Shown here: one piece after another, positions 6,086 through 36,198 of the stretch
Numbering within the stretch: position 1 is the first letter of the stretch
Layout: the number at the start of each line of letters is the position of its first letter
Virus record (IMG/VR): IMGVR_UViG_3300017991_000238
Coordinates: 1-36,198 of that record
Length of the DNA: 36,198 nucleotides
Direction: 5' to 3' (one strand)
Source of the DNA: a virus
Notes under the pieces: model-generated
What the model was told of the DNA's origin: nothing
The model's input: only the letters and a program-made list of their open reading frames with translations
The model's database searches: none
Made by a program: the position numbers and the translations under genes

Positions 6086-9000
6086 CTATTCGCGTATTCT
6101 CTCAAAGGGTTCGTAATAGAGCCCAAGGCCGATAAGCTCCATTCCGTCATAAACTGCGTCAAAATCTCCCGAAATCTTGAAACTATGATACAGACACGGC
6201 CCTAAAACGCACTGGTCTGTCTGGTACTCGTTCGTGCCGGGGTCAATATCGCCCGGTAGCTCCCAGGTCTGCGCTGTGGTAGCCGAGGTAATGATGTTAT
6301 CGCAGTAGTGCGCTATGCTGATCGTCTCCCCGGTGGTAGCCTTCTTCTCATAGAGCAAGCGGAAATACTCGATTACCGTATGCCGTAACAAGGGCCATTC
6401 ATCATCCAGCATAAGGTCTTTCGTCCAGACGTATTCGGCAATGTCCTCACCGTCCCAGGTGAGGCCGTTTTCCAGCCGATACATATAGGCGTTATCGTCC
6501 ACGCCGTAAGAGTAATTCTTCCCGGCGGTATCCTTGACCGTAAAGCCAACCTGTAAGGGATTATGACCATTGCTATCCTCTCGATAGAGCTTCGTCCATT
6601 CCTGGTGATCCAGGGAATACTCAAGTTCTACGTTGTGTGTAGCCTGCCCTGCGCCTGAAGAAATCAAGAGCTTGTATGAGCGTAAAGCCGGATCGTACCA
6701 GCCCACGCTATCGTCCAGTCTGGCGGTAGGTATGCAGCGCGTATCGTTCGGGTCCCAATAGCATTTAATATCTTCGGAAATGCTCTGGATCGTGGCGCCG
6801 TCACATTTAACCACGCCGGTGTCGGTCTGCCAGATTGCGATCTGCCGCTTTATCTCATCGGGTCTGCCGGTGAATCCCACGTCACATGCGGCCATTGACA
6901 GCGGGGCCACACACCCGGTTTTCTCCGAGATAAGCTGCATCTCCCAGGCGCTCGGCTCATCCGTCCAGTCTCCCCATACCCGCCATGTCTCGTGATTCTT
7001 GGTAACGAGATATTGATACACCCCGGAGTATTGAAAGACGTTGTATATGGGAATTGCCGCGGTGATACCTTCGCTGTCCCCGAAATAGAAGCTCCCCGAA
7101 TCATCTCCATTCCAGATATCCGGGGCATTGTAAGCGGAGTATATGGCCTTGTTCTGCTCTCCTACGGTCTGATTGAACAGAAATGACCTGCCCCCGTAGA
7201 AGCCGGGGAACTTATAGCCTTTGATGGGATAGGTAACGGGAATGCCCGCAATCTGGTCAATCTCCGTCTCGCCATCCAGAGGACCTGCCGAGAGACCTAA
7301 GCGGTAGAAAAAGAACGGTGCGCTCCCTTGTATCGCCCGCTCGAATTCCTCTCCCCGCTCTGCTGCGGAGAAGAGCACCACGCCGCTCTGCGCGAAGGTC
7401 GTGGAGGCCTGCGTTTGATTGAGAATATCCCCCACGCTCTCCCATGTGTCCCCTGTCCAGCGGTCAACGGTAAGCTCTGCGGCATTGGAGTTCTCATAAG
7501 TTCCCGAAGGATCTAGGTAGAATTGAAAGCCCTGCTGTGGCTCAGCAAAGCCGACGTACCAGTATTCCGAGGTCGTCATAGCGTCCAGAATAACGCTATC
7601 CCAATCGTACTCGCTGGCCTGGTCAAAGTAATCCTTCCAGTTTCCCCCGATATAGGTCTTGCACGCAGTACATCCCCGGTTGGTGCCGTCCCAGATGTTC
7701 GTAATATCCTGCATGGGAGCGTCTACCGTGACCTGATAGATGGTAGCGTCTCCCTTGTCGATATGGAATTGATACCAGTAGAGGAGTTGCCCTTCGAGGT
7801 ACTTGGGCTTCGAGGTATCTACGGTTGAGGACCAGGTGACGGTTCCGCTGCTGGTGAGGCCGGTTGTGTTGTCGGTTACGGAGAGGTCAACCCATGATTT
7901 ACCATTCCATTCCTGAGCGGTAATGGTGGCCCCTGCCTCTGAATTAGTATTTTTGAGATAGAACTTAACTCCCTGAAGCGGGCGGGTATAGCCGACAAGC
8001 CAGTGAAGGGAAGCGTCAACATAGGCACGGACAGGGACATTAAAGTTTGAGGTCCAGCGGGCTATGCCTTTGGAAATGCGGTATTCATCAAAATTCGCTG
8101 CGAACTCATTATCGGATTCGTCGCGTCCGATTTCTATAGAACTCGCTAAATCGTTTATGTCGATTGCAGCCGGCGTAGTGCCAACGACCGTCCCATTGAT
8201 AGTCAAGGCCCATAAACTTGAATCTGAGTCCCAGCCCTTAATCAAAGCTAAATGATTCCATTTCTTGTAGGCGCAATCTAAAAAGGTAGTCCAATCATAT
8301 GTTATTGATGCTTCGGTAGCAGCACCAGCATATATTTCAAACTCAAGATTGTGCGCTGTAAGCAAAATATAATTGTAGCGAAAGCTAAAATAATTATTAG
8401 CATCGTGAGGCTGACAATAGAAGCCGCCGTCATGGATTTCACTATTGAAATAAATCCAAAAATCTATCGTATAATCCTCTGCAGTCGTGGCAGCCCAATC
8501 AGCATGATCAGCGATAGATACATAATCCCCTGCGCCATCAAAAACCCCCGACTTCGGCCCAAATTTCGCTTGAGCCGTAGTAATAGCAGCATCCCCTTCA
8601 GCACTTGGGGCATGTACTCCTACAGCATCGGCAAACTCGGTTGTTGTGCCGTCCATGTGCATAAGCAACTTGCAATAAGTATCATTCCCGCCGCCGATCC
8701 ACGACACCTCGTCATTGTCATCGAGGCTCGTTCTGATCCTGTCCGTGTAGTCTTTTGGCTGTTCTACTTCATCCTCAACGGTCGTATAGGTAACGATAAA
8801 AGCCGTAGGCAACTGCTCGTCACCTCCCCAAATTACGCTTTCCTCACCGTTGCAATAGATCATGTTTCCCTGGGGAGCCATAGAGAAGCGTCCGAGGCCG
8901 GCGCCGGACACATCGGTATAAATCTCCGTGCCGACAAAATCCCCCGCCGTGGGAATAGCCGTCTCGTTATCCCAAATCTTGCCCTCGTAATCCAGGCCGG

Positions 9001-9316
9001 TACTTACCGCTAAAACAAGTACATGGCTCTCAGCGGGATTGTCTTTTCTGAAATGGAAGGCATTAGCGGGATACTGCTCATCGGTATCAAAGGGCGTGGT
9101 GTTTATCTTGCTATGCCCGGAGACACCCTTCAGGCGTTTGCCCTCTTTTCTGAGGTTTTGAATATCCTGAAAGCCGTAATCGTCTATCAGGCGGGGATCT
9201 TCTGCCGGTTGCCAGCGTCCGATAAAGGGATACGAGTAGGGTTTGAAGCTCGAAGCAAAGGCGTAGACGCTGAGACCGATAAGCAGCAAAATTAAAAAGG
9301 TTGTAATCTTCTTCAT
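6086..9316 (-). CDS. Large tail protein with LamG-type domain and N-terminal signal sequence
   Basis: 1,076 residues. The N-terminal ~190 residues contain QDIQNLRKEGKRLKGVSG, INTTPF, ESHVLVLA and RFSMAPQGNMIYCNGE, a pattern common in podovirus-type tail (tail tubular B or stopper-like) proteins. Residues ~215-425 are a concanavalin/LamG-like insert: LLMHMDG, VFDGAGDYVSIADHADW, FTIDFWIYF-like strands and FDEYRISKGIARWTSNF. The remainder is beta-rich with receptor-binding-like composition. The protein starts MKKITTFLILLLIGLSVYAF, a credible signal peptide, which is unexpected for a tail component. The ribosome site AAGGAGA is 12 nt upstream. It lies between the head-tail adaptor and the ejection trio, as expected for a tail protein. 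Confidence 0.8.
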   Translation of the reverse strand: MKKITTFLILLLIGLSVYAFASSFKPYSYPFIGRWQPAEDPRLIDDYGFQDIQNLRKEGKRLKGVSGHSKINTTPFDTDEQYPANAFHFRKDNPAESHVLVLAVSTGLDYEGKIWDNETAIPTAGDFVGTEIYTDVSGAGLGRFSMAPQGNMIYCNGEESVIWGGDEQLPTAFIVTYTTVEDEVEQPKDYTDRIRTSLDDNDEVSWIGGGNDTYCKLLMHMDGTTTEFADAVGVHAPSAEGDAAITTAQAKFGPKSGVFDGAGDYVSIADHADWAATTAEDYTIDFWIYFNSEIHDGGFYCQPHDANNYFSFRYNYILLTAHNLEFEIYAGAATEASITYDWTTFLDCAYKKWNHLALIKGWDSDSSLWALTINGTVVGTTPAAIDINDLASSIEIGRDESDNEFAANFDEYRISKGIARWTSNFNVPVRAYVDASLHWLVGYTRPLQGVKFYLKNTNSEAGATITAQEWNGKSWVDLSVTDNTTGLTSSGTVTWSSTVDTSKPKYLEGQLLYWYQFHIDKGDATIYQVTVDAPMQDITNIWDGTNRGCTACKTYIGGNWKDYFDQASEYDWDSVILDAMTTSEYWYVGFAEPQQGFQFYLDPSGTYENSNAAELTVDRWTGDTWESVGDILNQTQASTTFAQSGVVLFSAAERGEEFERAIQGSAPFFFYRLGLSAGPLDGETEIDQIAGIPVTYPIKGYKFPGFYGGRSFLFNQTVGEQNKAIYSAYNAPDIWNGDDSGSFYFGDSEGITAAIPIYNVFQYSGVYQYLVTKNHETWRVWGDWTDEPSAWEMQLISEKTGCVAPLSMAACDVGFTGRPDEIKRQIAIWQTDTGVVKCDGATIQSISEDIKCYWDPNDTRCIPTARLDDSVGWYDPALRSYKLLISSGAGQATHNVELEYSLDHQEWTKLYREDSNGHNPLQVGFTVKDTAGKNYSYGVDDNAYMYRLENGLTWDGEDIAEYVWTKDLMLDDEWPLLRHTVIEYFRLLYEKKATTGETISIAHYCDNIITSATTAQTWELPGDIDPGTNEYQTDQCVLGPCLYHSFKISGDFDAVYDGMELIGLGLYYEPFERIRE

Positions 9317-9672: not shown

Positions 9673-10563
9673 ATACCGCTTCTCCCGTTTCTCCTTCTCA
9701 TGTTCCTCGTAGTATCGCCGGTTGAAATTGACCAGGGCCCTGATCTGCTGTTTGTATATGTTCGGCCACACCACGGCATTATCTACCTGCACCTGTGCCT
9801 CAACTAGGCGTGTTATAGCACCTGCTACAATCGCATGGTGAAAGACCGGAGGCAGGACAGGAACATCGGCATCCGCTGAAAGCGGGGAAACCCGCTCTTC
9901 AAGCCAGTAGCGCAAAATATATTCCTGATCGGCTCCGGGATACCAGATAATCTGATTCGTCTCCACGCCCGCCGAACTAAAGCCCTTGCCGTGATAATAT
10001 CGTTCAGGCCTGCCCGTAGTGTCGTTGTAATGGTACTTGGTGTTCGATTCTATCTCCTGCGGGGTGATCTCGGTCATTTTCCCCTCGTCACACCATGCGG
10101 CCTCAAGAATCCGCTGCACGTTCTTTCCAGCCGTTGCCAGGGTCTTGCCCCTGTGGTGTACTGTGCCGCTTGAGGTGTAGGCGGTATAGCCGCTCGTATC
10201 CACGATGCTGAAGGTGTCGTCCGTCAGATAGGTAATGTAGTAAATCCGGTCGTTTACCTCGGTCATACCAGCTACACTGTGGATCGAGACAAGATCGCCG
10301 GTAACGAAACCGTGCGCGGTTGCCGTGACCACACCGGGGTTTGCCGAGGTAATATCGGTAATGGTAGCCGGGGCCACCGATTTGAGCGTGTCGTCAAAGT
10401 CCACAAGCCAGTAGAGGGGATACAGGTCATCAGCTACCATGAGCTCATTCATGTAGACCATGTTCGCCATGGCCTTGACCATGGTGCTCATGGCGCTGTC
10501 AAAGTGCTTGATAACCTTCTCTATTTCGCCGTATATGTCTGCAAAGGTGAGGTAATCAGCCAT
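9664..10563 (-). CDS. Head-tail adaptor with inserted E1-FCCH-like repeat domain
   Basis: 299 residues. The N-terminal helical part (1-60) and C-terminal part (FHHAIVAGAITRLVEAQVQV, then a basic tail) fit a podovirus adaptor or connector that binds under the portal. Residues ~67-137 (ITDITSANPGVVTATAHGF, GMTEVNDRIYYITYLTDDTF, GYTAYTSSGTV) form a small beta domain of the type annotated in many phages as E1-FCCH-like. It is inserted in the middle of the adaptor. The start overlaps the end of the GT-C gene by eight bases and a GAGACGT element lies upstream. The adaptor role is inferred from composition and from its place before the large tail gene. Confidence 0.65.
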   Translation of the reverse strand: MADYLTFADIYGEIEKVIKHFDSAMSTMVKAMANMVYMNELMVADDLYPLYWLVDFDDTLKSVAPATITDITSANPGVVTATAHGFVTGDLVSIHSVAGMTEVNDRIYYITYLTDDTFSIVDTSGYTAYTSSGTVHHRGKTLATAGKNVQRILEAAWCDEGKMTEITPQEIESNTKYHYNDTTGRPERYYHGKGFSSAGVETNQIIWYPGADQEYILRYWLEERVSPLSADADVPVLPPVFHHAIVAGAITRLVEAQVQVDNAVVWPNIYKQQIRALVNFNRRYYEEHEKEKREKRYLM

Positions 10564-12088
10564 CAGTTACGTCTCCGGGTTCTGGAAATCGTGTAGTTAC
10601 TGCCCAGCCAGGTCTAAATTTCCCTTTCTGCATTTGATCGAGCATAAAAGCGTTATGATTGGCCATCTGCATGACCCGGCCATAAGGGATAATCTTGCTA
10701 TTTGTGCTGTACTCAGTACCAAAATACTTATTAAAATATGTAGCGACATACCAATATTTGAGGGCTTGTTTATGATAGCCGAGCCGCCACATTGCACCGG
10801 CATAATTAAACACCGAACGAGGATCAGGGCTTTTTTTGCATACATCTGCCCACAGCCGTAAATCCGTTTGCCATGCGGCATTTTGCACATAGGTATTAAA
10901 CCCAAAGAAAAGCACCAGCATTGCGGTTGCCACAATCACGGCTTGCTTTAGATAGCGCCGGGAAAGGTGAATAATCACAATCGCTACTGGCAGGAAAAAA
11001 AAGAAACTCGGTATGTAGTTCCGGTGTTCATAGATCAATTCCAGCGGTATGATTGTTCCTTCCACAAGATGATTCAGAAAAAAGAAATACACACAGAACG
11101 CTATAAGCGGCTGTTTTTTCGTCTTGAGTGCGGTGAGCAAAAGGATAATGCCGATTATACTCAAGGCTATGAGGGTTTCAGGGGGATCAAACAGACCCCG
11201 GGAAACAGGGATTACATGCGTAAGAGAAAGAGCCCCATGATAGGGAATAAGCAAAATCATAATGTAAAATACGATTGCCCTGGATTCCGTGAGAAGCCGC
11301 TCGCCCATCGTAAAATCACGCTTTGCAAAACCAGTTTGCAGTTGTGAAAACGTGAATGTCTCCCATCCCTGCACGGCCAGCGTGAGCAAAAAACCGGCAA
11401 CGATAAACCCGCCGAACACATAGAGCTTTTTCCTGCTTATCCCGAAAAACATAAGCTCTAAAAGCGCAATGGCAGGAAAGGCCAGTATTGCGTTTTCTTT
11501 GCTGCCCATAGCCAACACTATAGCTACCCCTGAGAAAATGTACTGGTGAAGCGAATAGCGCTTCCTGGCCTTAATATAGAAGTACAATCCTGCGATATAG
11601 AACATCCCGCAGAGAGCATTTTGCCTCTGCACGATATAAGTCACGTTGGTAAGCTGTACCGGGTTAATGGCCCATAGCAGCGCAGCGATTCCCGCAATCT
11701 GCCAGGCATACTCGCCGTATTTCTCTTTCAGCTTTGGCAGGGTCACAACCTGCATGATAAACAAAAACAGAAACAGGGCGGTTATGATGTGAACAATGAC
11801 ATTGACAATGTGATAGCCAAGCACCTCAAGGCCGTGGAAATAATGATTAAGCGCAAAGGAGAACATGGCCACCGGGCGGTAGAGAATGGGGTGGTAAATA
11901 TCGCCTCGGGCTCCACCGGCGAACCAGCTCGCTTTGACGCTCTCCCAATTAAACTCGGTCATGTGAATGTTTTTATTGCGAATGATGTTGACCGAATCAT
12001 CATAATGGAACGGGCAAAGCAAACTATTGGAGTAAACAATCAAGATTGTCGCCGTGAGAATCGCAAATATGATCAGGTTTCGCTTCAT
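10556..12088 (-). CDS. GT-C membrane glycosyltransferase of the TMTC/ArnT/PMT type
   Basis: 510 residues from MKRNLIIFAI at 12088; the longer frame reaches back into the previous gene. About ten membrane helices. Family marks: the acidic first-loop motif FHYDDSVNI (28-35, DD at 30-31), YRPV at 70-73, GYHIVNVIVH at 91-100, and NPVQLTNVTYIVQRQN at 142-157, the hallmark of TMTC-like bacterial proteins. A short TPR-like helical hairpin follows near the C-terminus (RSVFNYAGAMWRLGYHKQALKYW). Family knowledge: these enzymes transfer a sugar from a polyprenyl-phosphate donor at the outer face of the inner membrane. It lies among virion genes and reads with them. With the GT2 at 24426 it could form a two-part surface-glycosylation system (inference). 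A polytopic glycosyltransferase here is unusual. Confidence 0.8.
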   Translation of the reverse strand: MKRNLIIFAILTATILIVYSNSLLCPFHYDDSVNIIRNKNIHMTEFNWESVKASWFAGGARGDIYHPILYRPVAMFSFALNHYFHGLEVLGYHIVNVIVHIITALFLFLFIMQVVTLPKLKEKYGEYAWQIAGIAALLWAINPVQLTNVTYIVQRQNALCGMFYIAGLYFYIKARKRYSLHQYIFSGVAIVLAMGSKENAILAFPAIALLELMFFGISRKKLYVFGGFIVAGFLLTLAVQGWETFTFSQLQTGFAKRDFTMGERLLTESRAIVFYIMILLIPYHGALSLTHVIPVSRGLFDPPETLIALSIIGIILLLTALKTKKQPLIAFCVYFFFLNHLVEGTIIPLELIYEHRNYIPSFFFFLPVAIVIIHLSRRYLKQAVIVATAMLVLFFGFNTYVQNAAWQTDLRLWADVCKKSPDPRSVFNYAGAMWRLGYHKQALKYWYVATYFNKYFGTEYSTNSKIIPYGRVMQMANHNAFMLDQMQKGKFRPGWAVTTRFPEPGDVTDG

Positions 12089-12134
12089 ATTCTCTGAGGG
12101 CGGAGGCCCCGTTTCCGAGGCCCCCGGTTTAAGG

Positions 12135-13076
12135 TTATCTAATACGGGTAAACCAAAAATGCAGTAAACCCCAACCATCAGTAGCTTCCTTGGTCGAGAA
12201 CATATAAACCAAGCTCTGCTCGATAGTTCCGTGTATGATTTTGGGAGTCCTCACCAGCATACCTTGTTTGTCTGCCGTGTCACTCGTCCCTGTTGACATA
12301 TATCCCAAAAATGGTCCCACGGCTCCTGCCGCGAAAATTGCCATTCCTTCACCCGTTGTAACGAGTGAGACGCTGGTATTAACACCAGATCGGAATGGAT
12401 CGTGGAAGCCAGCGGTTGCCAACACCTCATCAATGATAAAGCCATCAGCATCCCCGTCAGTTCCGGCACCGGCAAGCCCAAAGCTCACTTCGGCACTTCC
12501 CGCGCCGCCGCTCATAGCGGTGCCGACTTCGATGAGCATTGCGTCAATAACGCTTACTCGATCGAATTGAATACCGGTGTCTATTTCCGTACTTGATCCG
12601 GTGGTTACGATAAACGCGCAACCATGATGCCGGACGTTCGGACGCTCATCTATAATCACGCTATGCGTATACTGGTCAAAATCCTCTACAAACGCAGTAT
12701 AGCCGCCGGCTTGATCCACCACGATCAGATCCACAGCCTCATCATTTGTTTCTGCGGGATCGACCCGAAAGCGAATCATATCGTTGCCGACAGTGGCACT
12801 GCCATAATTCGTCCCGCTCACCGGATTGGCAAGTGAAGTCATAGCATCCGAATCATAGTAGTACAGCGTTTCAAGTGTAGCTACACTATCCGCCTTCATA
12901 ACGGCATACGTAATACCGGAGGTTATTTTCGTAAGCTCCATCTTGCCGTCAGCGGTCAGTGTGCCATCCCAGGAATAAACCTGCGCCCACATATCTTTGA
13001 AGCCTGCATGTGCGGTCATGGCAACGCTGAAAACAAGAGCTATTGCCAGCACAAAAGTTAAAAGTTTCCTTGTCAT
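12135..13076 (-). CDS. Putative structural protein with signal peptide
   Basis: 313 residues with a strong ribosome site (AAGGAGGTAG). It begins MTRKLLTFVLAIALVFSVAMT and ends the signal region with AHA-G, an almost ideal signal-peptidase site. The mature region is Gly/Thr/Ala-rich and beta-like (FRVDPAETNDEAVDLIVV, IDAMLIEVGTAMSGGAG, SVSLVTTGEGMAIFAAGAVG). That composition is typical of head decoration or other phage surface proteins, but no specific family was recognised. It lies between a repeat-containing head gene and the GT-C glycosyltransferase. It is either an unusual virion protein made with a signal sequence or an exported host-surface protein carried in the late operon. Confidence 0.65.
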   Translation of the reverse strand: MTRKLLTFVLAIALVFSVAMTAHAGFKDMWAQVYSWDGTLTADGKMELTKITSGITYAVMKADSVATLETLYYYDSDAMTSLANPVSGTNYGSATVGNDMIRFRVDPAETNDEAVDLIVVDQAGGYTAFVEDFDQYTHSVIIDERPNVRHHGCAFIVTTGSSTEIDTGIQFDRVSVIDAMLIEVGTAMSGGAGSAEVSFGLAGAGTDGDADGFIIDEVLATAGFHDPFRSGVNTSVSLVTTGEGMAIFAAGAVGPFLGYMSTGTSDTADKQGMLVRTPKIIHGTIEQSLVYMFSTKEATDGWGLLHFWFTRIR

Positions 13077-19615: not shown

Positions 19616-21229
19616 CTAGTAATCCCCCTTCTGCCATTTCTTGAGCCACCCCTTCGGCTCTTCCGGCACCTGCGCCGGTGGATCTCCCATAAAGTGACTG
19701 GCTTGGATGCTACAGCCTGCGCCAATTACACAATCATCGAACTTGCCTTCTTCAGCGCCCAGCTTGCCGTTCTCATCTCTGATAAACGTAGAGCACTCGT
19801 CAATCAGGGTAGCGTCATACATGGTGCCCTTCATTTGCCTGAGCCATGTTTTGAGATCCCCGCAAAGCTCATGTTTGCTCTGATTCGTCTCAGACCAGCC
19901 TATCTCTTTGGTGGGAGGGCCTACTTTTGCCGGTATCATCTTGAAGTAAAGCATTGCATCGAGCTTTTCCAAGCGCTTGCACGTGGTAATCCCTGCCCCT
20001 GTCCTTTCGGGACATATCAGGGCGTTACCGTCCGCGTTCGCATAAAATTGTGATAGCCGGAAAAGCAGCGTTCCCCACTCGTATGCGTCTACTCTATTCG
20101 AGCGCATCCGGGCTACTACCTCATCGAGGTGCCGATCAATGACATAGGCCACACTGTAGGTTTCGCCCAAGCCTTCGGAAACATCTGAGCCGATGCAATA
20201 ACGGTTCTCCCAAAAGCGTCCGTCCCATCCGTCAACCAGGTGATAGGGATAGCGCCACACTTCAAGGATCCCCCGCTTGTTCTCCACAAACTCTATTTCC
20301 TTGTGCTGGTTGACCTCAAGGCTGCCTCTATTGCCATCCATTGTAAACGTATGCCGAGCCAGCACCTTTCCAAAATAACTGCCAAGCATAGTGCTAATAG
20401 CTTCCTGTTCGGTAGCTGGATAGTGCTCACTAATCTCCTCATCGTCCATGCCTCCGTCCCGCTGTTCCTTGATGAACAAAGGGATCTTCTCTTTCTCATC
20501 CTCGTCATAGATGAGCTTGGTTGACCGTAACGGATGATCGGACCAGGGCATAAAGATTCTCTCAAAGTCATTGCTGCTGTTCATGCTTCCTGAGTACATT
20601 TCCCGTGTCCAAAACCATCCGGGGGCGGTCTTGATAGAATTAGAGATAACGATAACTCGGCCTCTAGCTGAATCCACGCCGGGTTTCGATGCTGAGTAAA
20701 TGTCCTTAACATACCGGTTCCAGCACGTCTCATCGAGTACCAAGAGGTTGAGCGTCTTGGATTGCGCTCCTGAAGGTGTCGTGGCTATACTCTGGATCGT
20801 GGACTCAAGCAGGTTATTATGGGAAAAGACAAGCTCCTCGTTGGTTGCCTTGCGAAGCGCGGGATAAATCCAGTCAGGTAGGCTATTGAGCATGAATCTG
20901 ATTCGCCCGGTTACTTCCCAGGCTATCTGTTCCTTGTAGCTGATAATAACGATGAGCTGTAAGGGCTTGGTTATCGCTTTCCATAGACAGTAAGCTGCGG
21001 TAAGCCATGTAAGCCCTAACTGCCTAGCTTTGAGGATGATAAGCCGGTCAGCCTTCATGAGCCGACTTATGATCCGCTTTTGCGATTCCCACAGCTTGAA
21101 CGGTATGGCTTGACTCGTTACCTTATCCTCAATCCAGACGTAGTTATCCACGAAATACTCAAAGGACTCACACACCCTCTCGCATTCTTGGACCTGCTGC
21201 TTGAATATGTCTACGGCTTCATTTTGCAT
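19616..21229 (-). CDS. terL: Terminase large subunit
   Basis: 537 residues, the DNA-packaging motor. ATPase marks: the adenine-binding Q/W region WESQKR near residue 50, a Walker A-like KARQLGLTW at 67-75, Walker B LLVLDE at 162-167 (acidic pair 166-167) and coupling motif VIVISNS at 192-198. Nuclease marks of the RNase-H fold: GSDVSEG (Asp 349), CPERTG (Glu 408) and FDD (498-499). It is expected to dock on the portal, cut concatemeric DNA and pump it. Its start lies within the last 11 bases of the small-subunit gene, and the strong terminator follows it. The set of motifs leaves little doubt. Confidence 0.92.
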   Translation of the reverse strand: MQNEAVDIFKQQVQECERVCESFEYFVDNYVWIEDKVTSQAIPFKLWESQKRIISRLMKADRLIILKARQLGLTWLTAAYCLWKAITKPLQLIVIISYKEQIAWEVTGRIRFMLNSLPDWIYPALRKATNEELVFSHNNLLESTIQSIATTPSGAQSKTLNLLVLDETCWNRYVKDIYSASKPGVDSARGRVIVISNSIKTAPGWFWTREMYSGSMNSSNDFERIFMPWSDHPLRSTKLIYDEDEKEKIPLFIKEQRDGGMDDEEISEHYPATEQEAISTMLGSYFGKVLARHTFTMDGNRGSLEVNQHKEIEFVENKRGILEVWRYPYHLVDGWDGRFWENRYCIGSDVSEGLGETYSVAYVIDRHLDEVVARMRSNRVDAYEWGTLLFRLSQFYANADGNALICPERTGAGITTCKRLEKLDAMLYFKMIPAKVGPPTKEIGWSETNQSKHELCGDLKTWLRQMKGTMYDATLIDECSTFIRDENGKLGAEEGKFDDCVIGAGCSIQASHFMGDPPAQVPEEPKGWLKKWQKGDY

Positions 21230-21539
21230 TCTTCTTTTGCTTCTTCTTCGCTTCCTGCCGTGATTCGACTACCAGGGCCATAGCGTTAGGCAGTTTCAAA
21301 TCAACCTCGCTCTTCTCTGCTGGATAGTCTCCCCTGAGCTTATGAGCATCCATGCGAGCCTTTTGGCGTGTACCCCAAGCAACCATAGGCTCTGAATATA
21401 CTATCCCTTGCTGTGTTGAGAATACTTTGGTTTCGCACGCCTCAAGCTCTTTCTCCAGGTACTCTAACAACCGCTCCGCAGTTATCCGGTTTCTGATGAT
21501 CTGCGGGCCGGTTTCTTCTTTTTTCTTCTTCGGAGGCAT
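21219..21539 (-). CDS. terS: Probable terminase small subunit
   Basis: 106 residues. The N-terminus is very basic (MPPKKKKEET) and the C-terminus also (EAKKKQKKNAK), with a helical core (RLLEYLEKELEACETKVF, then KARMDAHKLRGDYPAEKSEVDL). The HKLRGDYPAEKSE stretch resembles small terminase subunits, which bind the packaging site and load the large subunit. It overlaps the large-subunit gene by 11 bases and starts at TAATG overlapping the previous stop. I could not identify a clear helix-turn-helix by eye, so the assignment relies on position, size, charge and that motif. Confidence 0.7.
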   Translation of the reverse strand: MPPKKKKEETGPQIIRNRITAERLLEYLEKELEACETKVFSTQQGIVYSEPMVAWGTRQKARMDAHKLRGDYPAEKSEVDLKLPNAMALVVESRQEAKKKQKKNAK

Positions 21540-22327
21540 TATTTCCTATACCTCCCCATCACATAGGTTCCTAACAGCGGAGGCCATGCTTTCTTTACCT
21601 CACAGGTGAAATACTGCTCTAAGGCTGCATGTATCTCCTTGCCGGTGTGATAGTGATCCGCTGGTTTCTGCAATTTGCAGAGCTTCCGGCCAAGCCGATA
21701 GAGCCAATCTTCTGAAGGGGAGAGACACAATAGGTGGCCTCCGGGTTTGAGGACACGATATAGTTGATATGCGGCCAGATCCAGGTCTTTGAAATGCTCC
21801 AAGACGGATGAAGCCCATACAACGTCAAACTGTTTATCTCGAAAGGGCACATAGCCCGCAAAGCTAGCTCTTCGCACTTCTACGTTATTGAGGTTGAGTT
21901 TTACTGTTAGCTCTCTCGCAGCATCGGGGTATTTGTCATACGCCGTTACAGAGCTGAAATGCTCTGCCAACGTAGGCAGCATCACGCCGTTACCGCAGCC
22001 GAAGTCAAGGCACGTTCCTGAGCTATCGTCACGCAGTTTCCACAATGCTTTGAGCTTCCCCCACTGGATCCACCGCATGAACCAGCCCCCGGTGTGATAC
22101 AAGGGCGTGTCAACATAGCCCTGAGCACATTCGTTCAAGGTTATGGCCGGGATCTTGACGATCTTCGCGGGAGGGTTCGCGGTAGGTAAGAGCGCCTTGA
22201 ATCCCAGCCATGCCTCTTTATATTGGCCGGAGGAGAGAGCCGCCAATACGGTTTGCTCCTTGGTGACCACGACCCTGACGAAGATCACCAGGAGAAAGGT
22301 TGCTATGATTGTGAGCCAGTTTTTCAT
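21539..22327 (-). CDS. Membrane-anchored class I SAM methyltransferase
   Basis: 262 residues from the ATG at 22327, which overlaps the stop of the preceding mini-gene as ATGA; the longer frame lacks support. The N-terminus is a membrane anchor (NWLTIIATFLLVIFVRVVV, 3-21). The catalytic domain is Methyltransf_11-like: motif I CLDFGCGNG (107-114), an acidic residue after VTAYD (131), FDVVWASSVLEHF (167-179) and LKPGGHLLCLSP (193-204). Such enzymes methylate small molecules, lipids or sugars, not usually DNA. It lies at the end of an envelope-type cassette immediately before terminase. The substrate is unknown. An anchored methyltransferase next to a radical SAM enzyme suggests membrane lipid or glycan modification (inference). 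Confidence 0.8.
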   Translation of the reverse strand: MKNWLTIIATFLLVIFVRVVVTKEQTVLAALSSGQYKEAWLGFKALLPTANPPAKIVKIPAITLNECAQGYVDTPLYHTGGWFMRWIQWGKLKALWKLRDDSSGTCLDFGCGNGVMLPTLAEHFSSVTAYDKYPDAARELTVKLNLNNVEVRRASFAGYVPFRDKQFDVVWASSVLEHFKDLDLAAYQLYRVLKPGGHLLCLSPSEDWLYRLGRKLCKLQKPADHYHTGKEIHAALEQYFTCEVKKAWPPLLGTYVMGRYRK

Positions 22328-22419
22328 AGGGGCCAGTTCCCGAAGATAATCCCAACTGCGGTCACAATACCGAATATCACTACGCCCCATATCAGGCGCT
22401 TAATCGTGGGGTTCATCAT
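22324..22419 (-). CDS. Tiny single-pass membrane peptide (31 aa)
   Basis: A 32-codon frame with a basic N-terminus (MMNPTIKR) and one helix (LIWGVVIFGIVTAVGIIFG). GAGGTGGGC precedes the ATG. The ATG overlaps the TGA of the radical SAM gene, and its own TGA overlaps the ATG of the methyltransferase gene (both ATGA). This double coupling strongly suggests a real gene translated with its neighbours. It might help membrane placement of the anchored methyltransferase (inference). Confidence 0.65.
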   Translation of the reverse strand: MMNPTIKRLIWGVVIFGIVTAVGIIFGNWPL

Positions 22420-23768
22420 GCCCACCTCGTTTTTAAGACCACCCACGCACCTTTGAAGCCCTGCCACAGTTGCCCGAGAGAGCGCACTTTAGCAAGGTAT
22501 GACCATACTCTCCCTGGTTGAAGATATACGGAGCGATAGGCTTGCTTTTGCAGGGCTTTCATTTCTTGTTCTGATCTTCCTCTCGGGGTGTAAGCCAGCC
22601 TGCCGCCTTCCCAGCCTCCATGAGTTTTGTAATCTTCCCATCGAGTGCTGAGACTTTCTTGGTGAGATCGGCAATAATCGAAGAGAGCCGTTCCAGGGAA
22701 GGGAGTGCAGAGGGTGAATTGTGACCAGTCTGCATTGATTTCCCTCGCCAGCGAAATGGTTTCATGTGATTCCTCCCGTGTTTCCGTAGGTATCCCCAGC
22801 ATAAAGAATGCCCGGATATTGATACCTACCCTTTTAGTTGCTTTGAATGTCTCCCGTACTTGTTCAAGCGTGGTGCCCTTCTTGATGAAGTCTAAAAGCC
22901 TTTGGGTTCCGGTCTCTACCCCATAGCTGATCTGCCAGCATCCGGCCTGCTTCATACGCCTGAGCATTGCCTCATCTACCGTGTCGACCCTGCTCTCGCG
23001 TGTCCAAGAGATTCGGCGATTAAGGCCAGTGTCGCGAAGAGCGTCACAAAGGCTATACATCCAGGAACGATTAACGGTAATAGTATCCGCTTCCAAGTTG
23101 ATTTCTTTCGCATTGTAATCCCTCACAAGGAGTTCTATCTCTTGAATTACCCTATTCACTGAGTGAAAGCGCACTTTCCGCCCATGCAACCGACAGCAAA
23201 AAGCGCAGTTGAACGGACAGCCGCGGGCCACTATGACCGTATAGGCGTGGTGTCCCCGGTTGCGGGAGGCCGTGATTTGGTACTCTTTCATGGGGAGGAG
23301 ATGGCGTGCGGGGAGGGGGAGGGTGTCGAGATCACCCGTAGCCGTAGAAGCTACAAAGCGATAAGAGCCTTTGTTAATAGCGTCAAAGATCGCCTTTTCT
23401 CCTTCACCCTTCACTACCACATCAGCCTCGGGTATATCCCTCAAAGTCTCTTGAGATAAAACCGTTGGATGAGGGCCGCCGAGGACGATAGGAACGTCAG
23501 GAGCTACAGTTTTGCACTTATGAACGTAGTCTTTGACAACCTCATAGCTCGGAGTATTCATCGTGAAGCCGACAAGATTATATTTCTCAGGATACAAGGG
23601 TGTTTTCTGTACCTGCCCATCCCATATCCGCACCTCATGCCCTGTCTGCTCCAAGGCACCGGCCACATACGCCAGTCCCAGGGGCTCTGAGCATGGGCCG
23701 AACTGCGCCATGTCCTTGCCATAGCGCTGCTCTGCGGTTAAAGGTGGGTTAATGAGCAAAACGCGCAC
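22416..23768 (-). CDS. B12-binding-type radical SAM enzyme
   Basis: 450 residues from a GTG start with GAGGTG upstream. Residues 1-140 are the cobalamin-binding-like domain (LLINPPL, PLGLAYVAGALEQTGHEVRIWD, VLGGPHPTVL, EADVVVKGEGE). The radical SAM core follows, with the 4Fe-4S cysteines 184, 188 and 191 in RGCPFNCAFCC, then ISYGVETGTQRLLDFIKKGTTLEQ and FFMLGIPTETREE. Enzymes of this class methylate or rearrange unreactive carbons (for example BchE, hopanoid and P-methylases). The deacetylase gene's last 20 bases overlap this gene's start, and this gene's stop overlaps the membrane-peptide start. A class rarely found in phage genomes. Substrate unknown. Confidence 0.85.
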   Translation of the reverse strand: MRVLLINPPLTAEQRYGKDMAQFGPCSEPLGLAYVAGALEQTGHEVRIWDGQVQKTPLYPEKYNLVGFTMNTPSYEVVKDYVHKCKTVAPDVPIVLGGPHPTVLSQETLRDIPEADVVVKGEGEKAIFDAINKGSYRFVASTATGDLDTLPLPARHLLPMKEYQITASRNRGHHAYTVIVARGCPFNCAFCCRLHGRKVRFHSVNRVIQEIELLVRDYNAKEINLEADTITVNRSWMYSLCDALRDTGLNRRISWTRESRVDTVDEAMLRRMKQAGCWQISYGVETGTQRLLDFIKKGTTLEQVRETFKATKRVGINIRAFFMLGIPTETREESHETISLAREINADWSQFTLCTPFPGTALFDYCRSHQESLSTRWEDYKTHGGWEGGRLAYTPRGRSEQEMKALQKQAYRSVYLQPGRVWSYLAKVRSLGQLWQGFKGAWVVLKTRWA

Positions 23769-24465
23769 GCAAACACCTCTTTGCTAGGTTACATCCCCAA
23801 TCGAACACCCATTGCCTGTACCAGCCCAGGCCGTCATTCCAGCGCTCGGGGTGGATGTTGTAATATGTATCGATCATCACACCTGGACCGTCTCCGTCCG
23901 GCCAGTCTTTGAGGTTGTAGTCCGGGTTTTCTCTCCCGGTATCTGTGATATACTCTCCGCCTACCTTCTCCGCTTGCCCTACCAATCCAAACTGCTCAGG
24001 ATCAAAGTAGTCAAAGAACTCCCGGTTGTCATGTTTGGTCAGCGGGTTCCCATGAGCAGCGCATGTCTTGACCGGTACCCAGGCTCTCAAAATCTCAAGC
24101 TCGCTGTTAAAAATAGCGTGTGCCAACCCTATGTCACCCCTTGCCTTGTCCATTACTTCGTAGTGGTAGGCAACCTCGTGGCCCCAAAAATGGATATTTT
24201 CGATGATATGCTGGTTAAAGGTGGTTTTCCGGAAGTAATAGGTACTGTGGACACCCATAGCTGCTTCGAGATAGGCCATTCTGAGGGCATTTTGAGGCCT
24301 GCGGTCTACATCGTGGCGGAGGACAACAAAAGAGGGCATCGAAAGAAGCGCTGTAGCTGATCTTCGTAATTTGAAATATTCTTCCACCATAATAATTACA
24401 TATCTAGCTTCCATCAGCGATTCTATCAGCTCTTGATAAGCCGCAAGGGTGAAATCCTTTGCCAT
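23749..24465 (-). CDS. NodB-like polysaccharide deacetylase family protein
   Basis: 238 residues from MAKDFTLAAY at 24465, chosen because GAGAGGTGC precedes it; an 11-residue extension is possible but lies inside the previous gene. The metal-binding motif LRHDVDRRP (Asp/His at 51-54) and GHEVAYHYE (95-103) match polysaccharide deacetylase-type enzymes of the variant found in surface-polysaccharide clusters. The usual second catalytic motifs are not obvious, so its activity may be atypical. It overlaps the GT2 gene end and the radical SAM gene start, so the three are probably translated as one unit. Confidence 0.7.
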   Translation of the reverse strand: MAKDFTLAAYQELIESLMEARYVIIMVEEYFKLRRSATALLSMPSFVVLRHDVDRRPQNALRMAYLEAAMGVHSTYYFRKTTFNQHIIENIHFWGHEVAYHYEVMDKARGDIGLAHAIFNSELEILRAWVPVKTCAAHGNPLTKHDNREFFDYFDPEQFGLVGQAEKVGGEYITDTGRENPDYNLKDWPDGDGPGVMIDTYYNIHPERWNDGLGWYRQWVFDWGCNLAKRCLRARFAH

Positions 24466-25142
24466 GCACCTCTCCCGAGTATGCCCAAAATGGGCCAAAT
24501 CACCTTGTATATCTTAATCCCCGACTGCTCACCATTGCCGTACACAGGCGCTGTCTGTACGTTCGTGATCCTGGCTCCTACTTGTGAGAGTTTGATGAGC
24601 ATGTCATTGGGCATTCCATAGCGGGGGTAGATTTTGTCGAGCGAAAGTTTTTCAAGTATAGATCGATTAATTGCCGTATATCCCGATTGAGAATCTTGTA
24701 TGGCATAGCCGGTAAGAAAAGAAGTAAAAGCAGAAAGAATGACACCACCAAAATACCTAATCGCAGGCATAATAAACCTATTCCCCTTAGCATAATCAGT
24801 CTCCCCTAATGCTACCGGCTCCACGATCCGGTAAAGATCCTGTGGGTTCATCTGACCGTCCCCGGCCATGACTGCGATAATGTCAGCCTTATAGTCGAGG
24901 GCCGCTTGATAGCCTGAGACAATAGCGGCCCCCACGCCTCTGTTCTCGCAATGAATAATTGTTTTAATCCTTGGATCATCCTTTTCGGCAAGGGCCACAC
25001 GATCCTCGGTATCATCGGTAGAAGCATCATCAACCACGATAATATGATCAACAAAAGCAGGGATAGTGCGAAGAGTCCCATAGATTAATCGCTCCTCGTT
25101 GTAGGCTGGTACGACAACAGCAATATGCTTGCCCATTATCAT
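24426..25142 (-). CDS. GT2 family glycosyltransferase, DPM1/GtrB-like
   Basis: 238 residues. Motifs: VVPAYNEERLI (10-20), IIVVDDASTDDT (34-45), the donor-binding AVMAGDGQMNP (90-100) and IQDSQSGYTAINRSIL (148-163). These match the dolichol-phosphate mannose synthase or bactoprenol glucosyltransferase branch, which loads a sugar onto a polyprenyl phosphate on the cytoplasmic face. A hydrophobic patch (FGGVILSAFTSFLTGYAI) may contact the membrane. It lacks the two clear C-terminal helices of GtrB. It is the first gene after a repeat-rich gap and so probably the first of this transcript. The GT-C at 10556 could use its lipid-linked product. Confidence 0.8.
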   Translation of the reverse strand: MIMGKHIAVVVPAYNEERLIYGTLRTIPAFVDHIIVVDDASTDDTEDRVALAEKDDPRIKTIIHCENRGVGAAIVSGYQAALDYKADIIAVMAGDGQMNPQDLYRIVEPVALGETDYAKGNRFIMPAIRYFGGVILSAFTSFLTGYAIQDSQSGYTAINRSILEKLSLDKIYPRYGMPNDMLIKLSQVGARITNVQTAPVYGNGEQSGIKIYKVIWPILGILGRGAWQRISPLRLIKS

Positions 25143-26507: not shown

Positions 26508-27128
26508 TCATCCCTCCCTTTCTCCCTTAAATTCCAAAACCTCCTGGGCCAACCTCCTTACTGCTATCTCACAATACTTTTCCTCTATCTCTATCCCGAT
26601 GGCTTTACGGTTGAGCTGTTTAGCTGCTACAAGGGTAGTGCCACTGCCCATGAAGGGGTCGAGGATGGTTTCATCAATTTCCGAAAACCGACTTACTAGG
26701 CACTTCGCATATTCAATTGGTTTTGGAGATGGGTGATTTTTCTTGCTCAAATCTTTAATTGTAAATTGACAGAAATTTTGCCCCAATCTAACCTTACCAG
26801 CACAAACAGCAATAATGATGTTCATGTAACCCAAGGAACTCCTTGTCATGCCATTTCGATTCCATGCGTAAAATAAACCTCGATAATTTTCTCCAAAAGC
26901 GAGTATTAGATTTGCTGTGGCTATTCCGTCTATATTTGCAACAACGCCATGTTTTGCTTTTAAGGCGTGTTTCTCCCATCCGGTGATATACTTTCCATCC
27001 CATTCAGCATGGTTTTTCCCATACGGCGGATCTGTCAGCACCAAATGCACGGGCTCAAGCTGAGGCATTATCTCAAGACAATCCCCATGGTATATGGTGC
27101 AGTAGTTATCCTGGTAGTAGGGTTTCAT
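26508..27128 (-). CDS. DNA methyltransferase, DPPY type
   Basis: 206 residues from the ATG at 27128 (MKPYYQDNYC; AGGAAAGGG upstream). Catalytic motif IV TDPPYG comes first (about residues 32-37) and SAM motif I DPFMGSGTT near the C-terminus (about 157-165), the beta-class order. The middle contains YAWNRNGMTRSS and NHPSPKP. DPPY points to N6-adenine (or N4-cytosine) methylation. The target region is short, so the recognition site is probably short. It is an orphan enzyme: no restriction enzyme lies beside it. Probable roles are protection from host restriction or marking of the genome. Its first ten residues match those of the second methyltransferase. Confidence 0.85.
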   Translation of the reverse strand: MKPYYQDNYCTIYHGDCLEIMPQLEPVHLVLTDPPYGKNHAEWDGKYITGWEKHALKAKHGVVANIDGIATANLILAFGENYRGLFYAWNRNGMTRSSLGYMNIIIAVCAGKVRLGQNFCQFTIKDLSKKNHPSPKPIEYAKCLVSRFSEIDETILDPFMGSGTTLVAAKQLNRKAIGIEIEEKYCEIAVRRLAQEVLEFKGEREG

Positions 27129-27291
27129 CCCTTTCCTCTTCCCGCCACTGCCGCATAACCTCACCAACTCGACTCACGACTTCAAGCTCGATTTGATATA
27201 GTCTACTCACCCGATCATCGGGTTTCTTACGGCTCTCGGCGAGCTCAACCATACGGTCGACAATTTGCTCTATGTGTGGGTCAATAGTCAT
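27106..27291 (-). CDS. Small hypothetical protein (61 aa)
   Basis: It starts with ATGA overlapping the stop of the nuclease gene and overlaps the start of the methyltransferase gene by 23 bases. It is helical and charged (HIEQIVDRMVELAESRK, LYQIELEVVSRVGEVMRQW). No family recognised. It could be a small regulator or partner in the nuclease and methyltransferase set. Confidence 0.5.
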   Translation of the reverse strand: MTIDPHIEQIVDRMVELAESRKKPDDRVSRLYQIELEVVSRVGEVMRQWREEERDETLLPG

Positions 27292-27736: not shown

Positions 27737-28975
27737 TTAGCTATCTGCTGGACTTGAATATGTAAAATCCAAAGTCCCTTCTCTTATTTCCCCTTCACTC
27801 ATCCGGTGATATTCACCCTTCAAGTCTATCCCTACCGCCTTCCTAAACATGCGCTTTGCCACTACCAGGACTGTTCCCCTGCCTGAAAACGGGTCAAGCA
27901 CGGTATCCCCTTGTTTTGTGCCTGCCTTGATGCAGGTCTCGACCAGCTTCTCCGGGAATGTTGCAAAGTGAGCTTTTGGAAACGGTTGAGTGGCGATAGT
28001 CCAAACGGAGCGAATGTTGCGACGTGGATAGGTAGCTGAGCCTTCTCTTATTCCAGAAATTTTATCCGTTGGATACCTTTTTTGGCCTTTTTCTCGGCCT
28101 TTCCGATGAAAAGAACCATGCGCACCGGGACCCGTATCCCATCCATCCGGCATTTTAATTGATCGAGCTTTTCTATTATCATTAGGGTATATAGATTCTT
28201 CCCTCACCGCATCCTGATCCCAGTAATACTTAGCTGACTTGGTAAGTAAGAAAATATACTCATGGCTTTTGGTGGGCCTATCTTTCACGCTCTCGGGCAT
28301 CGGGTTTGGCTTTGACCAGATGATGTCTGATCGGAGATACCAGCCATCCGCTTGCAGGGCAAAAGCCACCCGCCAGGGAATGCCGACGAGGTCTTTGGGT
28401 TTGAGGTTTGATAAATTTCGACACATTAAATGCCGTGTATTTTTTGATTGCCATGTCTTACTACCAGATAAAGTCGATGTTGCTCCATTACCACCTTGCA
28501 TGGTACTCCCCGCATAACTATCCCCCAAATTCAAAAAGCACGTCCCATCCTTCCGCAGCACTCGCCTTATCTCACGGAATATATCGGTAAGGTGTTTGAT
28601 GTAGAGTTCAGGTGTGGGTTCAAGACCAAGTGAGCCACGCCAAGCGTTGCAGTGGAGACAGAATTGTCCTGCCATATGCTTTTGGTGATTACCGTCAAAA
28701 CATCTTGATTCTTCCCCATAGAATCTATTTGTGGTCCTTGATTTTGCAGCTGTTATTTCTTCTCTCACGTCATGCTTCTCTTGCCATTCCCCCCACTCAT
28801 GTTCACATCCCCCTGGATGATCCCATATCTGAGGTTCAAGGCCGTAATCCCTTAACCCCCAGTAGGGCGGGGAGGTTACAACACACTGGACGGATTCAGC
28901 GGGTAGGAAGGGCAACACATTGAGAATATGACCCGCATATTGTGTGCAGTAGTTATCCTGGTAATAGGGTTTCAT
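27737..28975 (-). CDS. DNA methyltransferase, SPPY type (N4-cytosine-like)
   Basis: 412 residues from the ATG at 28975 with GGAGAGGG upstream. Motif IV TSPPYWGLRDYG lies near the N-terminus and SAM motif I DPFSGRGT near the C-terminus (beta order). SPPY is usual for N4-cytosine methylation. A Cys/His-rich segment sits between (GCEHEWGEW, and CFDGNHQKHMAGQFCLHC) and could bind zinc. Further marks are FLNLGDSYAG, LVGIPWRVAFALQADGWYLR and IIWSKPNPMPESVKDRPTKS. It is also an orphan enzyme. It shares the MKPYYQDNYCT start with the other methyltransferase. A nine-base-pair hairpin lies in its leader. Confidence 0.85.
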   Translation of the reverse strand: MKPYYQDNYCTQYAGHILNVLPFLPAESVQCVVTSPPYWGLRDYGLEPQIWDHPGGCEHEWGEWQEKHDVREEITAAKSRTTNRFYGEESRCFDGNHQKHMAGQFCLHCNAWRGSLGLEPTPELYIKHLTDIFREIRRVLRKDGTCFLNLGDSYAGSTMQGGNGATSTLSGSKTWQSKNTRHLMCRNLSNLKPKDLVGIPWRVAFALQADGWYLRSDIIWSKPNPMPESVKDRPTKSHEYIFLLTKSAKYYWDQDAVREESIYPNDNRKARSIKMPDGWDTGPGAHGSFHRKGREKGQKRYPTDKISGIREGSATYPRRNIRSVWTIATQPFPKAHFATFPEKLVETCIKAGTKQGDTVLDPFSGRGTVLVVAKRMFRKAVGIDLKGEYHRMSEGEIREGTLDFTYSSPADS

Positions 28976-28989
28976 CCCTCTCCTTAAAG

Positions 28990-29015
28990 ACTCACACACC
29001 TGCCCCTGTGTGAGT
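28990..29015 (-). repeat. Nine-base-pair hairpin in the methyltransferase leader
   Basis: ACTCACACA (28990-28998) and TGTGTGAGT (29007-29015) are perfect inverted repeats around CCTGCCCC, 15 bases before the methyltransferase start. With no following T-run it is unlikely to terminate. It could be an operator or an mRNA control element, perhaps for the methyltransferase itself (inference). Confidence 0.4.
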
Positions 29016-29062: not shown

Positions 29063-29272
29063 CTAACATGACTTGCCGAAAAATTTTTGATAGAGTCCTT
29101 GCCAAAAGAAGCAATCGTCTCGCTGCTCTTGCAAAACACGGTCTTTGAGTGCTTGCTCGGTAAAGCCCGAGACGGTCATCCCTTTACGGTCGGCAATCTC
29201 TTTGACAATTTCCATGAGCTGGGCGGATACGGAAATAGACGTGTTCTCCTTTTTCTTGAAGAAATTAGGCAT
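29063..29272 (-). CDS. Ribbon-helix-helix-type protein
   Basis: 69 residues. A beta strand followed by two helices (NTSISVSAQLMEIVKEIADR, KGMTVSGFTEQALKDRVL) fits an Arc/MetJ-type DNA-binding fold. GGAGGGGCC precedes the start, which overlaps the regulator gene's stop by eight bases (ATGCCTAA). Next to the switch regulator, it may be a second repressor or an antitoxin-like regulator. No toxin partner was seen. Confidence 0.65.
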   Translation of the reverse strand: MPNFFKKKENTSISVSAQLMEIVKEIADRKGMTVSGFTEQALKDRVLQEQRDDCFFWQGLYQKFFGKSC

Positions 29273-29531
29273 GGCCCCTCCTTAGAAAAAAATGTGTAAA
29301 CTTATTTAATAGTGTGGTATGAGGTGCGGATTTTGGGGTAAGATGGGGAAAGAGAATTTCATCGTGGGTTATCCGGCCTACAAGTGCTTTCTCAATCTCA
29401 AGTGCCAGTTCTGGTGATGCCCGGCGCTTTCCATTTTCGATGCGCCATATAGTAGACTGATTTTTCTTTGTTAGTGCGGCAAGCTCTTTGATGGTTAAGC
29501 CTGCCTGAAGGCGAGCTGTTTTCAAGTCCAT
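29265..29531 (-). CDS. Cro/C1-type (XRE) regulator, probable leftward switch gene
   Basis: 88 residues from the ATG at 29531 (MDLKTARLQAG). The helix-turn-helix is LTIKELAALTKKNQSTIWRIENGKR. There is another in-frame ATG at 29540, but that codon overlaps the likely -10 element, and promoter geometry places +1 at 29532-29531. No ribosome site is seen for either, so the message may be leaderless. The C-terminal tail (LFPHLTPKSAPHTTLLNKF) is not a typical peptidase domain, so it is a short repressor without self-cleavage. It probably binds the two identical-arm operators of this switch. Which of the two XRE proteins keeps lysogeny cannot be told. Confidence 0.8.
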   Translation of the reverse strand: MDLKTARLQAGLTIKELAALTKKNQSTIWRIENGKRRASPELALEIEKALVGRITHDEILFPHLTPKSAPHTTLLNKFTHFFLRRGHA

Positions 29532-29538
29532 GAACAGC

Positions 29539-29567
29539 ATATATCATAGGTGATATGTTTATGTCAA
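29539..29567 (-). promoter_or_regulatory. Leftward switch promoter with operator O1
   Basis: On the minus strand TTGACA (29567-29562) is followed 17 nt later by ATATAT (29544-29539). The spacer contains a perfect inverted repeat, ATATCA-CCTA-TGATAT (29541-29556 on the plus strand). A protein bound there would cover the promoter. The distance from TTGACA to the operator (five bases) is the same in the rightward promoter. Confidence 0.7.
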
Positions 29568-29590
29568 GACAAAATATAGCTTTTGCCTAA

Positions 29591-29788
29591 ATGGAATACC
29601 ACGTCTTAAAGCAATGGATAGCACAGAGTGATTATAGCCAAGCAGAACTTGCTCGAATATTGGGCTTACATCAATCCAATTTTTGCGCTATGGTCAATGG
29701 ATACAAGAATAGGAACATGACCATCAGACAGTTGGAAAAGGTTTGTGAACTAATCGGCTATAATCCACGTTTTCTGTGGCCTAAATAG
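29591..29788 (+). CDS. Small Cro/C1-type (XRE) regulator, rightward
   Basis: 65 residues. The helix-turn-helix is SQAELARILGLHQSNFCAMVNG, then IRQLEKVCELIGYNPRFLWPK. It reads opposite to the other XRE gene, from the same operator region. No ribosome site is present; a -10-like TATAGC (29575-29580) would start the message within a few bases of the ATG. Operator O1 is centred near -38 from that start, a position from which a bound regulator could activate it, as lambda CI does at PRM. A bidirectional terminator follows 3 nt after the stop. It is probably the functional opposite of the other regulator in the lysis/lysogeny decision (inference). Confidence 0.75.
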   Translation: MEYHVLKQWIAQSDYSQAELARILGLHQSNFCAMVNGYKNRNMTIRQLEKVCELIGYNPRFLWPK

Positions 29789-35979: not shown

Positions 35980-35981
35980 AT

Positions 35982-36034
35982 GCCCCCCGCCCGCCAAAAC
36001 TATGCTATGCTCGCTCCTGAATTTAAGGGGGGGC
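35982..36034 (+). promoter_or_regulatory. Inverted repeat that could mask the integrase ribosome site
   Basis: GCCCCCC (35982-35988) and GGGGGGC (36028-36034) can pair across a ~40-nt loop. The second arm is part of the purine run AAGGGGGGGC just before the integrase ATG at 36040. Pairing could lower integrase translation. Not tested, and only one possible fold. Confidence 0.35.
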
Positions 36035-36039
36035 TTATC

Positions 36040-36198
36040 ATGAAAAGGGCAACCGTACATCCAAAGGGGAAACGCTGGTATGTCAATCTATATTGGAAAA
36101 GCAAGCGATACCGTAGGTTTCATTACGATGAACAATTCGGGTTTATTTATAAGGAGTTGGCTGAGGATATAGCCACACAGATAAATGGAGATATTAAA
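36040..36198 (+). CDS. Integrase (tyrosine recombinase), N-terminal fragment
   Basis: ATG 36040 after AAGGGGGGGC; the frame is open to the window edge (53 codons). The N-terminus MKRATVHPKGKRWYVNLYWK, SKRYRRFHYDEQFGFIYKE looks like the arm-type DNA-binding domain of phage integrases (basic beta strands K-x-W-Y-V-x-L-x-W-K, R-Y-R). The catalytic domain lies beyond the window. It fits the end of a rightward arm of a temperate phage, but identity is not proven from this part alone. Confidence 0.6.
   Translation, partial: MKRATVHPKGKRWYVNLYWKSKRYRRFHYDEQFGFIYKELAEDIATQINGDIK

Follow-up and report, generated by a model that had tools for sequence, protein, structure and literature searches.

We analysed a 36,198-base stretch of viral DNA (IMG/VR virus record IMGVR_UViG_3300017991_000238, hereafter the window), a linear fragment in which profile matches identify the terminase large subunit (terL), a P22-like portal, a capsid protein and replication genes. 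Directly upstream of the terminase genes lies a cassette of four enzymes that may modify a lipid-linked sugar: a GT2 glycosyltransferase, a deacetylase, a cobalamin (B12)-binding radical S-adenosylmethionine (SAM) enzyme and a methyltransferase. All functions given here were assigned from sequence and fold; a simple hydropathy window served to call transmembrane (TM) helices, and signal peptides were recognised by visual inspection. The cassette and the terminase genes are all on the minus strand, in this order:

24426..25142, minus strand: GT2 glycosyltransferase, 238 amino acids (aa), like polyprenyl-phosphate-sugar synthases and GtrB (PF00535, E=3.9e-20)
23749..24465, minus strand: deacetylase, 238 aa, predicted CE4/NodB fold (AlphaFold2 model and fold comparison)
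22416..23768, minus strand: B12-binding radical SAM enzyme, 450 aa (PF02310 and PF04055)
22324..22419, minus strand: 31-aa single-TM peptide, ATGA-coupled on both sides (read from sequence)
21539..22327, minus strand: class I SAM methyltransferase, 262 aa from the ATG at 22327, with one TM helix as N-terminal anchor (Methyltransf_11, E=2.3e-20)
21219..21539, minus strand: terS-like gene, directly after the cassette (assigned by position only; Pfam DUF5850 below cut-off)
19616..21229, minus strand: terL (PF03237, Terminase_6N, E=1.4e-8; phrog_2, E=3.8e-23)

The GT2 and deacetylase genes overlap by 40 bp, the deacetylase and radical SAM genes overlap by 20 bp, and ATGA overlaps join the 31-aa peptide to the radical SAM gene on one side and to the methyltransferase gene on the other, so that the arrangement resembles a translationally coupled operon. 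The promoter scan gave one 10/12 site ahead of GT2 (25179-25151); promoter-like sites overall are only weakly in excess (10 observed vs 5.1 expected). A first-pass annotation of this DNA had described four overlapping or abutting enzymes directly before the terminase genes, and both the layout and its coordinates are right; the enzyme identities it proposed agree with the profile matches or, for the deacetylase, with the CE4 fold. Comparison with a defence library returned generic radical SAM and methyltransferase matches only.

The GT2 protein matches the phage GtrB-like family phrog_841 (E=1.8e-19), and the NCBIfam profiles of AglJ, PpgS and ArnC match it below their cut-offs (31.3 bits against the ArnC model PRK10714, which has a cut-off of 529, so that it does not qualify as an ArnC). 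D38/D39 and D95-x-Q97 are invariant in the GT2 alignment.

The deacetylase has no match in Pfam or NCBIfam, including the HpnK family. Its AlphaFold2 model is of fair quality (predicted local distance difference test score, pLDDT, of 81), and Foldseek assigns it to CE4 with probability 1.00. Fold comparison of the model (VIA) gives Z 12.3 to WbmS (3hft), a protein of O-antigen biosynthesis, and Z 9.9 to ArnD (8t0j), as for an ArnD-like CE4 deacylase of an Arn-type pathway, with deacetylase folds reaching Z 13.8. The motifs RHDVD, GHE(I/V)xYHYEVMD and HGNPL are invariant across nine deacetylase sequences; what we take to be the usual second metal-binding histidine of CE4 enzymes appears as methionine in this family. 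A solved-structure search with the deacetylase alignment gave two matches, both at chance level. Among more distant phages, the deacetylase was found in the same contigs only, plus one faecal phage record fragment that lacks the other cassette genes. A more distant phage (L043, terL 49%) encodes a deacetylase-like protein with RHDVD and a hexapeptide/LpxD-like acyltransferase beside terL (L043:5075-6894), and thus surface-chemistry genes recur at the terL site.

The radical SAM enzyme has the class B layout, with a B12-binding domain (PF02310 at residues 21-126, E=5.1e-22; cobalamin binding is predicted) N-terminal to a radical SAM core (PF04055 at 178-340, E=4.9e-22) that carries CxxxCxxC. 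The three cysteines of CPFxCAFC are invariant (CPFNCAFC in the window); in this enzyme, as in the GT2 and the deacetylase, phage and cellular versions share the motif residues. It scores below every NCBIfam cut-off, the nearest families being ApyD (186 bits), HpnJ (162 bits) and BchE (157 bits). Such enzymes had been described as rare in phages, in keeping with our finding of B12-radical SAM matches (E<=1e-5) in 9 of 50,697 phage records, every one with less than 27% identity; judged by sequence comparison, there is no close phage counterpart of this step in that collection.

The methyltransferase most likely starts at the ATG at 22327 (262 aa) and not at 22390 (283 aa), since the former gives the ATGA overlap and is the start used in two related contigs, L008 and L010. 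In these two contigs separate cistrons encode the anchor protein and the catalytic core of the methyltransferase, and a small open reading frame (ORF), different in each contig, lies between them (L008:3480-3766; L010:7130-7270; the corresponding site in the window, 22010-22040, is continuous). The split led us to suspect that the anchored protein was a fusion made by deletion, which we rejected, as the cellular proteins are contiguous across the split. The description of this enzyme as membrane-anchored holds for the window, but the anchor is a separate cistron in two relatives and has no counterpart in cellular homologues, which are radical SAM-methyltransferase fusions without TM helix; the phage enzyme is preceded by roughly 50 residues with a TM helix. 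The ORF of the 31-aa peptide is conserved in L008 (95.7%), and L010 has another hydrophobic ORF in its place. The relative G3 has a ClpP-like protease gene between the methyltransferase and terS (L010:7752-8480; Pfam CLP_protease 1e-20) with a lipoprotein-like signal, and L043 has a similar ORF before its terL gene (L043:79-642).

The same genes are found in the same place in three more IMG/VR contigs. Two of these, L009 and L010, agree at 99.99% over 22 kb and come from one virus, so the three represent two further distinct viruses. Identity of the window to L008 is 84-95% in the cassette, against 98.9% for terL and 99.7% for portal, and dN/dS is 0.07-0.29 for the cassette versus 0.03-0.08 for terL and portal. 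By these estimates the cassette is under purifying selection, but with recombination or a more relaxed constraint, a pattern to be expected for genes that face the host. The phage radical SAM proteins form one clade (support 99/99) in unrooted trees, as do the phage GT2 proteins (100/100).

Scanning genomes with the deacetylase alignment identified two Deltaproteobacteria metagenome-assembled genomes (MAGs) that carry the whole set, and further searches raised the total to six bacterial loci (L011, L016, L026, L036, L039 and L040) with GT2, the deacetylase and one fusion protein of about 700 aa whose radical SAM part is 52-55% identical to the phage enzyme (GT2 is seen in five of the six; L026 is cut by the contig end). 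The order GT2-deacetylase-[radical SAM-methyltransferase] on one strand is observed in 4/6 loci, and in L011 GT2 is nearby on the opposite strand. Genes for GT-C glycosyltransferases of PMT_2/PMT or TMTC-like type are found beside the set in three loci (L036, L039 and L040), and LPG_synthase_TM flippase-like genes near it in two (L011 and L036). The radical SAM enzyme is rare in cells (3/297 genomes from the phylum of L011, its own included). A related radical SAM group (L025, L037 and L038) has no adjoining deacetylase; GT2, methyltransferase and GT-C genes are nearby. A TerL search of the same 297 genomes matched only one prophage, which is distant (31%, G083) and lacks the cassette.

The window also encodes a GT-C enzyme of its own, next to a gene for an exported protein:

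10556..12088, minus strand: GT-C glycosyltransferase, 510 aa from the ATG at 12088 (ORF open from 12178), about nine TM helices, TMTC/PMT type without tetratricopeptide repeat (TPR) domain (PMT_2, E=6.1e-5)
12135..13076, minus strand: p313, exported protein with a putative Sec-type signal peptide, adjoining GT-C (signal-like N-terminus read from sequence; no Pfam match)

Among the greedily chosen ORFs of the window, which is a fragment, the GT-C is the only one with several TM helices. It has the features of the PMT/TMTC clan, i.e., many TM helices, DD in the first loop and downstream motifs: the DD, YRP, KE and R-x-Y positions, which bind donor and metal according to a study of TMTC proteins (PMC7801869), are all retained. 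Its relatives include the TMTC-like GT-Cs whose genes precede the cellular operon of L036 and L039. No TPR match was found in the GT-C, C-terminal TPR repeats being a trait of the TMTC subgroup, and no match to it was found among the 50,697 phage records. A sequence-based search of solved structures gave no match for GT-C or GT2 at the limits used. Polyisoprenol-linked sugars are the donors of GT-C enzymes (PMC6801728), and because the phage has its own GT-C, a member of a clan using such donors, it seems to encode the first as well as the last step of a pathway for lipid-linked sugars. The GT-C very likely belongs to the pathway of the cassette, so the four-enzyme set listed by the first-pass annotation, although all four are real, was incomplete, as it missed the GT-C (10556-12178).

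Sec-type signal peptides were read on several minus-strand proteins of the late block: p313, a 1076-aa protein (6086-9316) and a 140-aa protein (967-1389). Such signals are unusual for virion proteins. The G3 homologue of the 1076-aa protein has a lectin-like domain, and G3 also encodes 391-aa and 116-aa proteins with Sec-type signals; the G3 stretch concerned is L028:3423-7856. In G3, p313 is duplicated with the signals retained; its AlphaFold2 model is unusable (pLDDT 39).

From these gene identities we consider it fairly probable that the phage carries the genes for a nearly complete lipid-linked sugar pathway like Gtr and Arn, with tailoring by the B12-radical SAM enzyme and the methyltransferase. 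GT2 would charge polyprenyl phosphate with a sugar that is probably an N-acylated amino sugar, and the CE4 deacetylase would take off the acyl group and expose the amine. The radical SAM enzyme would then alter the sugar skeleton, most likely by C-methylation (ring contraction or rearrangement may also be considered), and the membrane-anchored methyltransferase would methylate the sugar once more. A host protein, or an unrecognised one, would flip the product, and the GT-C may then pass the sugar on to an acceptor beyond the cytoplasmic membrane, either on the host surface or on exported phage proteins, and the phage may benefit through receptor masking or through modification of those proteins. 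The first-pass annotation had also raised the possibility that such a modification excludes other phages.

This proposal draws support from a GtrB-like GT2, a deacetylase fold common to ArnD and WbmS, and cellular sets beside GT-C or flippase-like genes. The phage's own GT-C supports it as well, since its motif positions are retained and its G3 orthologue passes the PMT_2 cut-off (27.4 bits against 26.1), and so does the cassette's retention in the same position in two additional viruses, with the dN/dS values given above. The scheme also matches the order of Arn (GT2, deformylase, flippase, GT-C; PMC10632790) and that of Gtr in O-antigen conversion (PMC11436027), and the phage proteins group into one clade in both the radical SAM and the GT2 tree. 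The lipid-linked sugar modification suggested earlier for these enzymes thus gains strength from the cellular operon and the phage GT-C. Several observations weigh on the other side. None of the four cassette enzymes reaches an NCBIfam equivalog cut-off; the phage GT2 has no TM helices, while five cellular homologues have two at the C-terminus; the GT-C lies 9 kb from the cassette among structural genes and, at 23.7 bits, falls below the PMT_2 cut-off in the window; and no GtrA, ArnE/F or LPG_synthase_TM-like flippase was seen among the ORFs checked for TM helices in this linear fragment.

Compared with known systems, the phage shares with GtrA-GtrB-GtrC (P22 type) a phage-borne GtrB-like GT2, a separate membrane glycosyltransferase and the lipid-carrier logic, but it adds a deacetylase, a B12-radical SAM enzyme and a methyltransferase, its GT2 lacks TM helices, GtrA is not seen in the window fragment, and its distant GT-C differs from the variable membrane glycosyltransferase found in the same operon in Gtr systems. 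With ArnC-ArnD-ArnEF-ArnT it shares GT2, the CE4-fold deacylase and a GT-C related to ArnT via the PMT clan; unlike that system it is viral, has two extra enzymes (radical SAM and methyltransferase) and shows neither sugar-nucleotide enzymes nor a flippase. The cellular set has the same four domains, but cells fuse the radical SAM enzyme and methyltransferase whereas the phage has separate genes with an anchor between them. The phage GT-C resembles TMTC and bacterial PMT-type enzymes in its motif positions and TM helices and differs in having no C-terminal TPR repeats.

As to the acceptor, the exported phage proteins are candidates beside host surface glycans because the signal-bearing p313 adjoins GT-C and is duplicated in G3. 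It is possible, judging from sequence, that p313 is an acceptor. In this form of the pathway, the modified sugar on its polyprenyl carrier would be used by the GT-C to O-glycosylate the phage's own Sec-exported late proteins (p313 and others) outside the cytoplasmic membrane and not the host surface. This would fit the signal-like N-termini on other late proteins and the TMTC relatives, which are part of a protein O-mannosylation pathway (PMC7801869), but what ties p313 to GT-C is adjacency; we give this form a low probability. Being a version of the Gtr/Arn-like pathway with a stated acceptor, it overlaps that proposal in confidence. A hopanoid-like product, in which GlcNAc on a lipid tail is deacetylated, ring-contracted to a cyclitol ether and methylated, would stay a membrane lipid and need no GT-C. 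HpnI, HpnK and HpnJ provide the same trio of glycosyltransferase, deacetylase and B12-radical SAM enzyme in the same logical order (PMC12583986), a parallel that suggests ring contraction as possible chemistry, and the phage radical SAM enzyme matches TIGR03471 (HpnJ, E=1.8e-47). That score (162.3 bits) falls well short of the 577.6 needed for HpnJ, however, the deacetylase belongs to a different family from HpnK and folds as CE4, GT-Cs accompany the set in the phage and in cells, and a squalene-hopene cyclase match was found in just one of the six set-bearing genomes (MAGs may be incomplete). Since five of the six lack a cyclase match, we regard a hopanoid lipid as unlikely.

Two further explanations have much less in their favour. 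In RiPP-type maturation (ribosomally synthesized and post-translationally modified peptides), the radical SAM enzyme would be a peptide C-methyltransferase acting on small ORF peptides; its top NCBIfam score is indeed to the RiPP enzyme ApyD, and the 31-aa ORF adjoins its gene. The ApyD cut-off is 750 bits, though, the 31-aa peptide consists of no more than a TM helix and gives way to a different ORF in L010, and the cellular loci tie the enzyme to GT2 and the deacetylase, which makes this role very improbable. The cassette could also be a recently captured host fragment or an assembly error, functionless in the phage, as it resembles only the cellular operon and its divergence is uneven relative to terL. 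The three other contigs with purifying selection, the cellular genomes with the same set, the phage-specific anchor, the TM-less GT2 and the clade support (99/99) show that chance or misassembly does not account for it; misassembly, which the first-pass annotation had named as one outcome that would overturn its reading, is in practice refuted, and functionless capture is hardly credible.

If the Gtr/Arn-like pathway is right, phage lipid-linked sugar pathways gain a cobalamin-radical SAM tailoring step without close counterpart in the phage records searched, and B12 radical chemistry on lipid-linked sugars becomes testable. It would also draw attention to a set of bacterial genes for GT2, a CE4 deacetylase, a radical SAM-methyltransferase fusion and GT-C, and suggest a further route by which phages change the surface of the cell or proteins that they themselves export.

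Other genes were also observed. In G3 the tail genes are followed by another two GT2-like genes and one resembling an O-methyltransferase gene (L028:14891-17221); the window ends before the corresponding place. The right-end truncated ORF of the window (35980-36198) has no Pfam match and resembles the N-terminus of a tyrosine integrase, and a divergent repressor/cro-like helix-turn-helix pair of cI/cro-switch type is found at the early switch (29265-29788). The early region encodes two phrog_67 DNA methyltransferases (26508-27167 and 27737-28999, minus strand), and a tRNA-Met (CAT) gene is located inside the phage (31756-31830, plus strand).

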